Origin: Roseomonas gilardii subsp. gilardii
Lineage (GTDB): Bacteria; Pseudomonadota; Alphaproteobacteria; Acetobacterales; Acetobacteraceae
Assembly (NCBI RefSeq): GCF_023078375.1
Contig: NZ_CP095554.1
Location: forward strand, 1,364,001 to 1,428,000
DNA: 64,000 nucleotides
Direction of reading: 5' to 3'
Shown here: positions 35,831 through 41,391 of the stretch, in pieces
How positions within the stretch are numbered: position 1 is the stretch's first letter
Layout of the letters: each line of letters opens with the position of its first letter
Notes under the pieces: model-generated
The model's input: the letters and a program-made list of their open reading frames with translations, nothing else
Databases searched by the model: none
Told to the model about the DNA's origin: nothing
Made by a program: the position numbers and the translations under genes

Positions 35831-36157
35831 TCAGCCCTCCTCGTCGTTCTCGCTCTCGACGCCGATTTCCTCGCCGAGATCCTCGTCCGCGTCCTCCAGA
35901 TCCTCGGCATCCTCCAGCCCGGTATCGGTGTCGGCGTCCTCGAGGTCCGTGTCGTCCGTCTCGGCCTCCGTGCCCGGCGTCACCGCGCGCTTGCGCAGCT
36001 TGTCATCGACCGGGGCGGCCGGGCGGCGCAGGCGGGGCTGCTCGGCCGGCTGCTCGGTGCCGCATTTCGGGCAGACGGCGGGCGTGCGGGCAAGGTCGTA
36101 GAACTTCGTGCCGCAGGCCACGCAAACGCGTTTGGTGCCCAGTTCGGGTTTGACCAT
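35831..36157 (-). CDS. TIGR02300-family (FYDLN acid) protein
   Basis: The 108-residue protein begins MVKPELGTKRVCVACGTKFYDLART, which names the family, with a CxxC...CPKC zinc-ribbon (about residues 12-37). The rest is a strongly acidic tail rich in D and E. The function is unknown. It lies next to aroA-cmk-rpsA in many alphaproteobacteria, and this arrangement is kept here with divergent transcription from aroA. The ATG at 36157 fits the family start; the longer frame does not. Confidence 0.92.
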   Translation of the reverse strand: MVKPELGTKRVCVACGTKFYDLARTPAVCPKCGTEQPAEQPRLRRPAAPVDDKLRKRAVTPGTEAETDDTDLEDADTDTGLEDAEDLEDADEDLGEEIGVESENDEEG

Positions 36158-36285
36158 GGATGGAGTCGTCCTGGTTTCGACCGACGTCCGCTCAGGCCCC
36201 GCGCTTGCCGCGGAGCCTTGGGGGCCGGGCTTCAATGAGGGCGCGCGATTGCCACGCACCCCCTCGCGTGTCAAACGCGCAATCC

Positions 36286-37647
36286 ATGCGGGACACCTGC
36301 CAGATGCTCAGGCCGCTGCGTGCGGCCTCCCCCGCCGCCTCTTCCGCCGCCTTTCTGGGCCAGGGGCTCGCGGGCGAGATCCGCGTGCCCGGCGACGGGG
36401 CGATCGGCCACCGCGCCCTGATCCTGGCGGCCCTGGCCGTGGGCGAGAGCCGCATCGAGGGCCTGCCGGAGCGCGAGGACATCCGCCGCACCGCCGCCGC
36501 CCTGCGCGCCCTGGGGGCGAGGGTGGAACAGGTTGGTCCTGGCCTCTGGCGCGTCGTGGGGCGCGGGGTGGGTGGGCTGGTGGAGCCCGGGGACATCCTC
36601 GAACTGGGCGGTTCCGGCGATGTCGCGCGGCTGTTCTGCGGGTTGCTCGCGGGCCATCCGCTTTTCGCGGTGCTGACCGGCGATGCCGCATTGCGCCGGC
36701 GGCCCATGGGGCCGGTGACCGGGGCGCTCGCCGCCTGCGGGGCGCGTTTCGCCGCGCGCGGGGCGGGGTTCCTGCCGCTGGCGGTGGAGGGGGCGCGGCT
36801 GGCCCTGCCGGCGGAGCACCGCCTGACCCTGGCCTCGGCCCCGGTGAAGTCCGCGCTGCTGTTGGCCGGGCTCTGCGCCCGGGGCGTGACGCGGGTGGAG
36901 GAGCCCGGGAGCAGCCACGACCATACCGAGAACCTGCTGCGCCATTTCGGCGCCCGGCTGCGCGTGTCGCCGCAGGGGGAGGGGGAGGGACAGGGAAGGC
37001 TGATCGAACTGGAAGGGCAGCCGGAGTTGAGTGCCGCGCCGGTTTCCGTGCCGGGCGACCCGTCGCTGGCCGGTTTTCCGCTGGTGGCGGCGCTGCTGGT
37101 GCCGGGGTCGCGGGTGACGGTGCGGGGCGTCTGCCTCAATCCGCTGCGCAACGGCCTTCTCGCCACGCTGCGCGAGATGGGGGGCGGGTTCGCCGTGGCC
37201 GGTGAGCGCGTCGAGGCGGGTGAGCCGGTGGGCGATGTCACCGCCACGCATTCCCCTTTGCGCGGCGTGGATGTCCCGGCCGGGCGGCTGGCCGGTGCCG
37301 GGGCGCTGCTGGCGGTGGCCGCGGGCTTCGCCACGGGCACGAGCCGCATCCGGGGTCTGGAGGCTGGGGAACTCGCGTCCCTCGCCGCGCTGCTGGCCGG
37401 GAACGGTGTGGCGGCGGAGGCTGGGAGTGGCGAGCTGATCATCCGCGGCAATGGTGCCTCCGTGCCCGGCGGCGGCCGGTTGGATTCCGGGGCGCAGCCT
37501 CGTCTGGCGATGAGCGCACTGGTCCTGGGCCTGGCGGCGGAGATGCCTGTGACCGTGGCGGACAGTGCCGGCATCGACAATGTTTTCCCGGGGTTCGCCG
37601 AAGCGATGAATCGCATGGCGGGCGGGGACGCCATCGCGCCCCTTTGA
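36286..37647 (+). CDS. aroA: EPSP synthase (AroA) family protein with degenerate active site
   Basis: The roughly 453-residue product has the full EPSP-synthase fold pattern: GDAALRRRPMGPV, SAPVKSALLLAGL, DHTENLLRHFGA, DPSLAGFPLVAALLVPGS and PRLAMSALVLGLAAE. It also sits in the usual TIGR02300-aroA-cmk-rpsA locus. However, the invariant PGDKSISHR is PGDGAIGHR (catalytic Lys lost). The GNAGTAMR-type loop is GGSGDVAR, the D-E pair of MIDEYP is absent (AGAGALLAV), and the RVKESDR segment is deleted. LDHRIAMS is also QPRLAMS. Known enzymes need these residues, so it probably does not make EPSP. Another aroA elsewhere is implied. The start could be 36286 or 36304; neither has a strong ribosome site. 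Confidence 0.82.
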   Translation: MRDTCQMLRPLRAASPAASSAAFLGQGLAGEIRVPGDGAIGHRALILAALAVGESRIEGLPEREDIRRTAAALRALGARVEQVGPGLWRVVGRGVGGLVEPGDILELGGSGDVARLFCGLLAGHPLFAVLTGDAALRRRPMGPVTGALAACGARFAARGAGFLPLAVEGARLALPAEHRLTLASAPVKSALLLAGLCARGVTRVEEPGSSHDHTENLLRHFGARLRVSPQGEGEGQGRLIELEGQPELSAAPVSVPGDPSLAGFPLVAALLVPGSRVTVRGVCLNPLRNGLLATLREMGGGFAVAGERVEAGEPVGDVTATHSPLRGVDVPAGRLAGAGALLAVAAGFATGTSRIRGLEAGELASLAALLAGNGVAAEAGSGELIIRGNGASVPGGGRLDSGAQPRLAMSALVLGLAAEMPVTVADSAGIDNVFPGFAEAMNRMAGGDAIAPL

Positions 37648-37713
37648 CCGGCGTGGTATGATGCGGCGCACAAATCCTGTAGGGTGCCGCAACCAGAACG
37701 GGAGCAGATCCGG

Positions 37714-38379
37714 ATGACCGCCACCGAGACCCTTGCCGCCGGAACCCGGGCGATCATCGCCGTGGACGGCCCGGCCGCCGCCGGCAAGGGCACGCTGGCC
37801 CGCCGTCTCGCCACGGCGCTGGACCTGCCTTACCTTGATACCGGCCTGCTCTATCGCGCCACGGCGCGGCGCCTGATCGACGAGGGCGGCGATCCGGGGG
37901 ATGCCCGGGCCGCCGAGGCGGTGGCGCGGGCCCTGGAGCCGGGCGATCTCGGCCGGGCCGGCCTGCGCGCGCCGGACACCGATAACGGGGCCAGCCAGGT
38001 CGCGGCCATTCCCGGCGTGCGGGCCGCGCTGCTCGATTTCCAGCGCCAGTTCGGGCGGGCCAATGGCGCCGTGCTGGACGGGCGCGACATCGGCACCGTG
38101 GTCTTTCCCGATGCGCCGGTGAAGCTCTTCGTCACCGCCAGTCCCGAAGCGCGTGCCGAACGCCGTTGGAAGGAGCGCCAGGCGCGGGGCGAGGATGTTT
38201 CCCTGGCGGCGGTGACCGCCGAGATGGCCGCCCGCGACGCCCGCGACGCCTCCCGCGACACGGCCCCCATGAAGCCCGCCGAGGACGCGATCCTCCTCGA
38301 CACCACCACCCTCGACGCCGATGCCGCCTACGCCCAGGCCCTCCACCTCGTCCGCCAGCGCCTCGGCCTCATCGGCTGA
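37714..38379 (+). CDS. cmk: Cytidylate kinase
   Basis: The 221-residue enzyme phosphorylates CMP and dCMP with ATP. It has the P-loop DGPAAAGKGTLARRLA near the N-terminus, YLDTGLLYRA for nucleotide binding, and the LDGRDIGTVVFPDAPVKLFVTA segment typical of bacterial cytidylate kinases. The ATG at 37714 has GGGAG upstream; an earlier in-frame ATG at 37684 adds ten residues without homology. It sits between aroA and rpsA as expected, though an isochorismatase gene and a repeat element intervene before rpsA. Confidence 0.95.
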   Translation: MTATETLAAGTRAIIAVDGPAAAGKGTLARRLATALDLPYLDTGLLYRATARRLIDEGGDPGDARAAEAVARALEPGDLGRAGLRAPDTDNGASQVAAIPGVRAALLDFQRQFGRANGAVLDGRDIGTVVFPDAPVKLFVTASPEARAERRWKERQARGEDVSLAAVTAEMAARDARDASRDTAPMKPAEDAILLDTTTLDADAAYAQALHLVRQRLGLIG

Positions 38380-39675: not shown

Positions 39676-41391
39676 ATGGCATCTGCCACCACCCTCGACC
39701 GCGCCGCGGCTTCCGAGGATTTTGCTGCCCTCCTCGACGAGACCCTCGGCGCTGACACCGGCTTCGCCGGCTCCGTCGTCACCGGCCGCGTCATCCGCGT
39801 GGACGACGACGTCGCCGTCGTCGATGTCGGTCTCAAGAGCGAGGGCCGCGTCCCGCTGCGCGAGTTCGCCCCCCAGGGCCAGAAGGCCGAGGTCAAGCCG
39901 GGCGACACCGTCGAGCTGTTCGTCGAGCGCTATGAGGACAAGGACGGCTCCATCGTCCTGTCGCGCGAGAAGGCCCGCCGCGAGGAGGCCTGGACCAACC
40001 TGGAGAAGCAGTTCCAGGCCAACAACCGCGTGAACGGCACGATCTTCGGCCGCGTCAAGGGTGGCTTCACCGTCGATCTCGGCGGCGCCGTGGCCTTCCT
40101 GCCGGGCTCGCAGGTCGATATCCGCCCGGTGCGCGATGTCGGGCCGCTGATGGGCTCCCCGCAGCCCTTCCAGATCCTGAAGATGGACCGCGCCCGCGGC
40201 AACATCGTCGTGAGCCGCCGCGCGGTTCTCGAGGAGACGCGTGCGGAGCAGCGCAGCGAACTGATCCAGGGCCTGAAGGAAGGCATGGTGCTCGACGGCG
40301 TGGTGAAGAACATCACCGACTACGGCGCCTTCGTGGATCTGGGCGGCGTGGACGGGCTGCTGCACGTCACCGACATCGCCTGGCGTCGCATCAACCACCC
40401 CTCCGAGGCCCTGACCATCGGCCAGCAGGTCAAGGTGCAGGTCATCCGCTTCAACCCCGAGACGCAGCGCATCTCGCTCGGCATGAAGCAGCTGATGGCC
40501 GATCCGTGGGAGGGTGTGGCCGTCAAGTATCCGGTGAACGCCAAGTTCTCCGGCCGCGTGACGAACATCACCGACTACGGCGCCTTCGTGGAGCTGGAGC
40601 CGGGCGTCGAGGGTCTGGTCCATGTCTCCGAGATGAGCTGGACCAAGAAGAACGTCCATCCGGGCAAGATCGTCGCCACCTCCCAGGAGGTCGAGGTGAT
40701 GATCCTGGACGTGGACGAGCCGAAGCGCCGCATCTCGCTGGGCCTGAAGCAGGCGCAGGGCAACCCCTGGGACCAGTTCCTGGAGCAGCACCCGCCGGGT
40801 TCGACCGTCGAGGGCGAGATCCGCAACATCACCGAGTTCGGCCTCTTCATCGGCCTGGGCCCGGATCTGGACGGCATGGTCCACATGTCCGACCTGTCCT
40901 GGGAGCTGACCGGCGAGCAGGCCATGGCCAACTACCACAAGGGCGACACCGTCCAGGCCAAGGTGCTGGACGTGGATGTCGAGAAGGAGCGCATCTCCCT
41001 CGGCATCAAGCAGCTCCAGTCCGACCCGGCCGCCGAGGTGCTGGACCGCGTCCGCAAGGGTGACGTCGTCACCGGCGTGGTGACGAAGGTCGAGGCCAAC
41101 GGCATCGAGGTGAAGGTCGAGGACATCCTCACCGGCTTCATCCGCCGCGCCGAGCTGGCCCGCGACCGCAACGACCAGCGCCCCGAGAAGTTCGCGGTGG
41201 GCGAGAAGGTCGATGCCAAGGTGGTCATGGTGGACCGTGCGGCCCGCCGCCTGAGCCTGACCATCAAGGGCAAGGAGGTCGAGGAGGAGCGCGAGGCGGT
41301 GCGCGAGTACGGCACCTCCGACAGCGGTGCCTCGCTGGGCGACATCCTGGGTGCCGCGATCCGTCGCCGCAACCAGATGACCGAGGACTGA
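39676..41391 (+). CDS. rpsA: 30S ribosomal protein S1
   Basis: The 571-residue RNA-binding protein brings mRNA to the small ribosomal subunit. Six S1 (OB-fold) repeats run in series. The first starts AGSVVTGRVIRVDDD near residue 30. The third and fourth contain NITDYGAFVDLGGVDGLLHV and NITDYGAFVELEPGVEGLVHV. The fifth has NITEFGLFIGLGPDLDGMVH. Length is typical for alphaproteobacteria. The ATG at 39676 fits the family start; upstream open frame is non-coding. Codon use is the most biased toward C-ending codons in the window, as expected of a highly expressed gene. Confidence 0.97.
   Translation: MASATTLDRAAASEDFAALLDETLGADTGFAGSVVTGRVIRVDDDVAVVDVGLKSEGRVPLREFAPQGQKAEVKPGDTVELFVERYEDKDGSIVLSREKARREEAWTNLEKQFQANNRVNGTIFGRVKGGFTVDLGGAVAFLPGSQVDIRPVRDVGPLMGSPQPFQILKMDRARGNIVVSRRAVLEETRAEQRSELIQGLKEGMVLDGVVKNITDYGAFVDLGGVDGLLHVTDIAWRRINHPSEALTIGQQVKVQVIRFNPETQRISLGMKQLMADPWEGVAVKYPVNAKFSGRVTNITDYGAFVELEPGVEGLVHVSEMSWTKKNVHPGKIVATSQEVEVMILDVDEPKRRISLGLKQAQGNPWDQFLEQHPPGSTVEGEIRNITEFGLFIGLGPDLDGMVHMSDLSWELTGEQAMANYHKGDTVQAKVLDVDVEKERISLGIKQLQSDPAAEVLDRVRKGDVVTGVVTKVEANGIEVKVEDILTGFIRRAELARDRNDQRPEKFAVGEKVDAKVVMVDRAARRLSLTIKGKEVEEEREAVREYGTSDSGASLGDILGAAIRRRNQMTED

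Follow-up and report, generated by a model that had tools for sequence, protein, structure and literature searches.

The window, a stretch of 64,000 nucleotides from Roseomonas gilardii subsp. gilardii, carries a class II EPSP synthase gene (aroA; 36286..37647, plus strand) whose product of 453 residues is predicted to be catalytically dead and is referred to here as a pseudo-AroA. Upstream and in divergent orientation lies a gene of the TIGR02300 (FYDLN acid) type (35831..36157, minus strand; NCBIfam TIGR02300, 53.1 bits against a cut-off of 41.65), which starts with MVKPELG. Downstream are cmk, encoding (d)CMP kinase (37714..38379, plus strand; TIGR00017, 179.7 bits, cut-off 135.55), and an open reading frame (39676..41391, plus strand; defined by its translation and start) that we take to be rpsA, the gene for ribosomal protein S1. 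The aroA frame comprises 453 codons and a stop codon and is open throughout, with no internal break that would mark a pseudogene. Coordinates, frame and neighbours all agree with the sequence-only reading, which had described the gene as intact, full-length and in the order TIGR02300-aroA-cmk-rpsA.

Active site and fold of the window protein

The protein matches the family profile PF00275 over nearly its whole length (233 bits, cut-off 22.8; model positions 5-417 of 417), and its best solved relatives are the class II AroA structures 2ggd, 2pqd, 2gg4 and 2pqb, which align over residues 21-442. It has lost most of the catalytic motifs of the class II enzymes represented by 2gg4 and 2ggd, which we take to be of the Agrobacterium CP4 type. 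Its score to the NCBI AroA equivalog TIGR01356 is 252.3, below the cut-off of 287.25; an intact relative reaches 381.5 and the second AroA of the same genome 349.6. Dead relatives score 248.4, 249.5 and 259.0 in three cases and 211.6 in another. The protein is not a MurA either, as its score to TIGR01072 is 34.0 bits against a cut-off of 392.7.

Alignment with relatives showed losses along the whole chain (all coordinates on the plus strand). PGDGAIGHR replaces PGDKSISHR, with the catalytic lysine and serine gone (36388..36414), GGSGDVAR replaces GNSGTAAR (36607..36630), SHDHTE replaces TRDHTE (36913..36930), RLAGAGALL stands at the site of the lost MIDEYP motif (37285..37311), and QPRLAMS replaces DHRIAMS (37495..37515). 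All of these had been noticed from the sequence alone; SAPVKS in place of SAQVKS (36835..36852) is an additional change, and TSFPGF reads NVFPGF. The RVKESDRL segment, previously described as deleted, is indeed altered, but it is shortened rather than missing: it reads EAGEL (37360..37374), with a five-residue gap relative to the closest orthologue (genome G003). Contact arginines are partly retained (R43, the arginine of RRRPM, and R406). Taken together, the protein does not hold the residues that we assume, partly from general knowledge, to be needed in an active AroA, namely the lysine, the D/E pairs, the K-E-R segment and DHR. Sequencing error, already discounted by the sequence-only reading, is ruled out because two orthologues from the same genus, about 75% identical, carry losses of the same kind, such as lysine to glycine. 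On the strength of these motifs, the window protein is almost certainly dead as an EPSP synthase.

The residues that persist were analyzed in 146 columns that are invariant across 32 intact AroA proteins, which were scored in 12 dead full-length proteins and split into 18 active-site columns, chosen from what we take to be the ligand contacts, and 128 others. Active-site cells are retained in 54/216 cases versus 1046/1536 for the other columns. As active residues have AT-richer codons, labels were permuted within residue type; the active columns then keep 3.00 of 12 residues versus 5.01 expected (P = 0.0016). Matching by residue type shifts the expectation from 68% to 5.01 of 12, with 3.00 observed, which weakens GC bias as the sole cause of the active-site loss. 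Among the other columns, 33 of the 128 are retained in all five clades (with genus g119 entered as one clade) versus about 15.4-15.6 expected, and the maximum in 5,000 permutations was 24. A tryptophan (W99, numbered as in intact G008) persists in 12/12 dead and 6/6 short forms. The non-catalytic motif GRGVGGLVEP (36559..36588, plus strand) keeps its invariant G, G, E and P in 12/12 dead full-length forms; among the short forms, 6/6 retain G, G and P, and 5/6 retain E. The protein thus combines lost catalytic residues with retained fold residues, as a pseudoenzyme does. The earlier suggestion that the fold is kept while the chemistry seems lost is in line with a PF00275 match that spans the family, with the preferential loss of catalytic columns and with the persistence of many fold positions.

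A second AroA and the fate of the resident gene

A PF00275 search of the complete genome (G000; 4,624,884 bases in two contigs) returned three genes: a MurA (510.7 bits to TIGR01072), the window gene, and an AroA from another subfamily, named alt, at C1:250877-252136. The alt protein retains all motifs and passes the TIGR01356 cut-off (349.6 versus 287.25), and the seven AroA motifs are retained in 30/30 alt loci examined. The window gene is, by both profile searches, not the sole AroA of its genome. The sequence-only reading had proposed a search for a second aroA and had named the lack of one, along with prototrophy for aromatic amino acids, as a sign that the window protein is still an EPSP synthase; no such lack exists, because another AroA is present. 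Roseomonas mucosa plasmids match the initial 20 kb of the second contig at 90% identity over 65% of the query, which places the organism near that species.

We searched for alt in 397 sampled genomes of the family, taken here as the GTDB Acetobacteraceae, a wider group than the Roseomonadaceae in which NCBI taxonomy places Roseomonas. At an E-value of 1e-30, matches were found in 34 genomes; three of these, only 36-38% identical (G095, G206, G306; in G095 and G206 at least, the resident AroA is intact), were excluded, leaving 31. In these alt genomes the old aroA locus is intact in 2 (G265, G373), dead but full-length in 12 (G000, G003, G004, G030, G144, G186, G230, G396, G407, G143, G301, G388), reduced to the N-terminal domain in 6 (G013, G024, G126, G228, G273, and G293 as far as its contig extends) and empty in 10 (G015, G110, G123, G153, G178, G224, G260, G326, G401, G412). 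For G326, G401 and G412, where TIGR02300 was not found nearby, the 2,500 bases before cmk were searched instead. The one remaining genome, G240, is 67% complete and was left unclassified.

The comparison included 14 relatives from the same genus. In ten of them the usual locus holds an intact class II AroA (L107-L116), and alt gives no match; G003 and G004 carry a dead orthologue at the same locus, about 75% identical, together with an alt about 93% identical to the G000 copies; and G013 has alt plus a shortened remnant. G006 was considered as an AroA-less genome and set aside, since it also lacks a full cmk and an assembly gap is likely. Across the family, an intact AroA query matched in 383/397 genomes. 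The motif check of alt-free AroA covered 30 intact sequences (26 genome stretches, 2 public contigs, G206 and G095). Genomes with low or missing AroA scores were rechecked with PF00275 (29 genomes, 27 of them without alt besides G240 and G293), and the matches found look like pieces of split assemblies. G066 and G152, with genomes of about 2 Mb, have a single PF00275 match with a MurA-like score, so judged by profile they may be cases of natural loss of EPSP synthase.

The short remnants end within about 20 residues past GQPEL (37015..37029, plus strand, in the window), a point that we take to be the domain boundary. In genus g113 the N-terminal AroA domain runs in frame into Cmk in three genomes (G126 L225, G228 L227, G263 L226) and in frame up to the start of Cmk in G293, while G186 of the same genus has the full-length dead form, not fused. 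An in-frame fusion is also present in genus g18 (G273, L198). The fused chains from these two genera carry only half an AroA, with no intact AroA half, and the fused half scores 39.4 bits to TIGR01356. G263 has the half-AroA/Cmk gene with neither alt nor an intact AroA found in an assembly of about 560 contigs, for which an assembly gap or auxotrophy are possible explanations.

In a tree of RpsA, Cmk and TIGR02300, dead or reduced forms occur in genera g1, g11, g16, g17, g18, g113 and g119, and intact alt-free species are also present in g1, g16 and g18. The intact G265 is placed among the dead genomes of g119 (supports 0.82 and 0.97), a placement that would imply several separate losses within this genus. 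Deep supports are partly low (for example 0.07 and 0.13), so the independent events are left without an exact number.

Outside the family, alt was found in 10 genomes besides G000 among 398 sampled in the phylum, at 63-69% identity; these belong to other alphaproteobacterial and to gamma-like families. Copies with 61-64% identity are located on plasmids of two Pseudomonas and one Erwinia. Because of this patchy spread and the plasmid copies, alt is probably mobile and horizontally acquired. A resident TyrA-AroA with a good score is present in 4/10 of the phylum-level carriers. In G773 (L327), only the TyrA part is left before cmk and alt lies elsewhere in the genome, an outcome that matches the Pseudomonas syringae case as told in the relevant sections of PMC1173090. 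Since this outcome is found outside the sampled family, displacement of a resident EPSP synthase is a recurrent event and no oddity of Roseomonas.

Constraint on the dead gene and its junction with cmk

In the window lineage, formed by G000, G003 and G004, the NG86 dN/dS of the dead aroA is 0.39-0.49, compared with 0.23-0.26 for alt, 0.17-0.18 for cmk and 0.07-0.09 for rpsA. In neutral simulations, which combined five base compositions with two kappa values and ran 200 replicates per setting, the 0.5 percentile was 0.54 at its lowest. The third-position excess is 1.72-2.21, and the highest neutral 99.5 percentile is 1.39. The GY94 omega of the triplet is 0.177; we did not accept such values at face value or use a likelihood ratio against omega = 1 as proof, because 24 neutral simulations gave 0.28-0.61 rather than 1. 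The N-terminal domain shows no extra constraint by NG86 in this lineage (0.37/0.50/0.37 versus 0.42/0.49/0.41 for the rest). The dN/dS estimate proposed from the sequence alone thus indicates weaker constraint than in the neighbouring genes and stronger constraint than under simulated neutrality. As all three genomes share the lysine-to-glycine change, this selection acted after the loss. Judged by these rates, purifying selection still acts on the protein sequence of the dead gene in the window lineage, though in relaxed form; the gene is not simply debris, and selection has very probably kept it.

Other dead groups gave NG86 values of 0.37 (g17), 0.47-0.64 (g16) and 0.61-0.74 (g119), and their divergence may be partly older than the loss. 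The g119 copies are close to neutral (position ratio 1.31-1.61), and purifying selection after the loss is not clear there. In the g113 fusions, GY94 omega is 0.125 for the dead domain and 0.119 for the Cmk half, and NG86 is 0.19-0.23 versus 0.09-0.14, with domain dS near or above 1.

The junction with cmk bears on what this constraint means. A candidate cmk start overlaps the aroA stop in 9/12 dead full-length genes (ATGA in 8, GTGA in 1), and the same overlap is seen in the intact relatives G265, G373, G029 and G095. In the three genomes of the window lineage, cmk starts 66 or 67 bases past the aroA stop without overlap. The 66-nt spacer (37648..37713, plus strand) is well conserved among these dead same-genus genomes and includes a Shine-Dalgarno-like GGGAG (37700-37704, plus strand). 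It also holds TGGTATGAT, which by eye resembles an extended -10 element. A consensus scan of 36100-37800 detected no promoter or terminator, and a hairpin in the spacer scores no better than those of shuffled sequences (z -0.84). On the other side of the gene, TGTCAAA is present in 31/32 slots between TIGR02300 and aroA or cmk (the 36160-36286 region and its counterparts in relatives). It was considered as a shared aroA signal and rejected in favour of a simpler explanation: read on the other strand as TTTGACA, it is probably the -35 box of the divergent TIGR02300 gene.

The overlap raises the possibility, which we regard as fairly unlikely, that the dead frame is a translated leader, which ribosomes must translate to reach the overlapping cmk start. 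The frame would then only have to stay open and fold harmlessly, and trimming, fusion and loss would be ways of escape. The frequent overlap, shared with intact relatives, fits this explanation, as do the abolition of the overlap by fusion to Cmk and the retention of a single frame in 17/17 remnants (tblastn, ten queries, E up to 0.05; G263 and G293 left out of this run). Against it, the cmk starts are candidates called from sequence alone, the window gene and its two orthologues are constrained despite having no overlap (+66/+67), and the dead domain of the fused proteins is still strongly constrained where no start overlap exists. With a separate cmk start 66 nt downstream, no coupling is forced in the window lineage; stop/start coupling can explain frame keeping elsewhere but not the constraint seen here.

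Slow neutral decay is rather improbable overall and is disfavoured for the window lineage. On this account the gene would be on its way to becoming a pseudogene and would look intact because a GC-rich frame contains few stops. Stops are rare because third-position GC is near 0.9, and a fraction of 0.045-0.325 of the simulated genes stayed free of them after 0.30 substitutions per site; the near-neutral rates in g119 and the graded series from intact to empty loci also speak for decay. However, the neutral simulations do not reproduce the rates of the window lineage and of the g113 fusions, 0/17 remnants are frame-broken, and the same non-catalytic columns are retained in separate lineages beyond the expectation from residue type. 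A changed enzyme, with a rebuilt cleft that retains ligand binding or supports a different reaction, would suit the retained fold residues and contact arginines but is very improbable, because the replaced positions differ between dead lineages (lysine to G, R, P, Q, T or S) so that no shared new site appears, and several relatives are without the whole C-terminal domain.

Proposed displacement by a probably mobile enzyme and a possible role beside Cmk

The sequence-only reading had left a choice between a pseudoenzyme with a new role and a decayed copy whose function another aroA covers. The backup exists in the form of the intact alt, and the dN/dS values speak for constraint, so parts of both apply. 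We favour, at about even probability and from comparative sequence data, a takeover that left the old protein in place as a pseudoenzyme, probably with a tie to Cmk. A mobile AroA of a different subfamily would be acquired, catalysis would pass from the resident to the acquired enzyme, and the old AroA would then be retained for its fold in a non-catalytic role. This role could be linked to the operon neighbour Cmk, for which the dead protein may serve as a folding, assembly or regulatory partner. Such a link appears the most likely form of the role, because the remnants directly precede Cmk and two genera join the surviving domain to it; based as it is on gene position and fusion, we hold it tentatively, at somewhat below even probability. 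What speaks most for the role is that the N-terminal domain has repeatedly survived, either in front of Cmk or joined to it. What speaks most against it is the near-neutral change in g119 together with total loss in ten genomes; as these ten alt-bearing genomes have lost it, the protein is dispensable. Further points against this explanation are that in the fusions NG86 indicates weaker constraint on the dead domain than on Cmk, at high dS, that cmk has its own start in the window lineage, and that the N-terminal domain there is no more constrained than the rest of the protein. A more far-reaching version of this scenario, which we consider unlikely, is that the class II AroA of the family has a second, non-catalytic job of its N-terminal domain with Cmk, which outlives catalysis and is exposed by the mobile AroA, leading from dead AroA to single domain to half-AroA/Cmk chimera.

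The closest precedent is the TyrA-EPSP synthase remnant of P. syringae, where, in the sections of PMC1173090 that treat it, a foreign stand-alone EPSP synthase (its gene is called aroF there) entered the genome and the resident domain was truncated, and where the authors suggest that what is left could evolve into a new regulatory domain. A stand-alone enzyme was probably acquired from outside in the present system as well. In that account the remnant is carried by its fusion partner TyrA and the loss occurred by deletion, which one section puts at the N-terminal end and another at the C-terminal end (PMC1173090). In contrast to the case described there, the resident gene here has no fusion partner and, in 12 genomes, keeps its full length and shows point losses; it is the single-domain forms that join a partner, which is Cmk rather than TyrA. 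The bifunctional AroA/Cmk proteins (NCBIfam NF008816, PRK11860) also unite AroA and Cmk in one chain, as in our fusions, but that model comprises a full AroA plus Cmk (662 positions), whereas the chains found here have one decayed AroA domain plus Cmk. The part retained in the short remnants corresponds approximately to PDB entries 1p88 and 3ti2 (216 and 228 residues), presumably isolated N-terminal EPSP synthase domains that are fragments of active enzymes. In the open-licence literature, we found no paper joining EPSP synthase and pseudoenzyme, Roseomonas and EPSP synthase, or Acetobacteraceae and pseudoenzyme.

An aroA gene at its usual locus, or a family-level profile match, is no proof of EPSP synthase activity, a caution for any scoring of genomes for the glyphosate target or aromatic prototrophy. 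As a rule, pseudoenzymes come to light only once the change is complete; here, a single family provides a graded series, datable on the species tree, from genomes with both enzymes intact through dead full-length protein, single domain and fusion to absence. This series makes it possible to test whether a housekeeping enzyme had been doing structural work unseen, or whether the arrangement of an operon can by itself preserve a dead protein.
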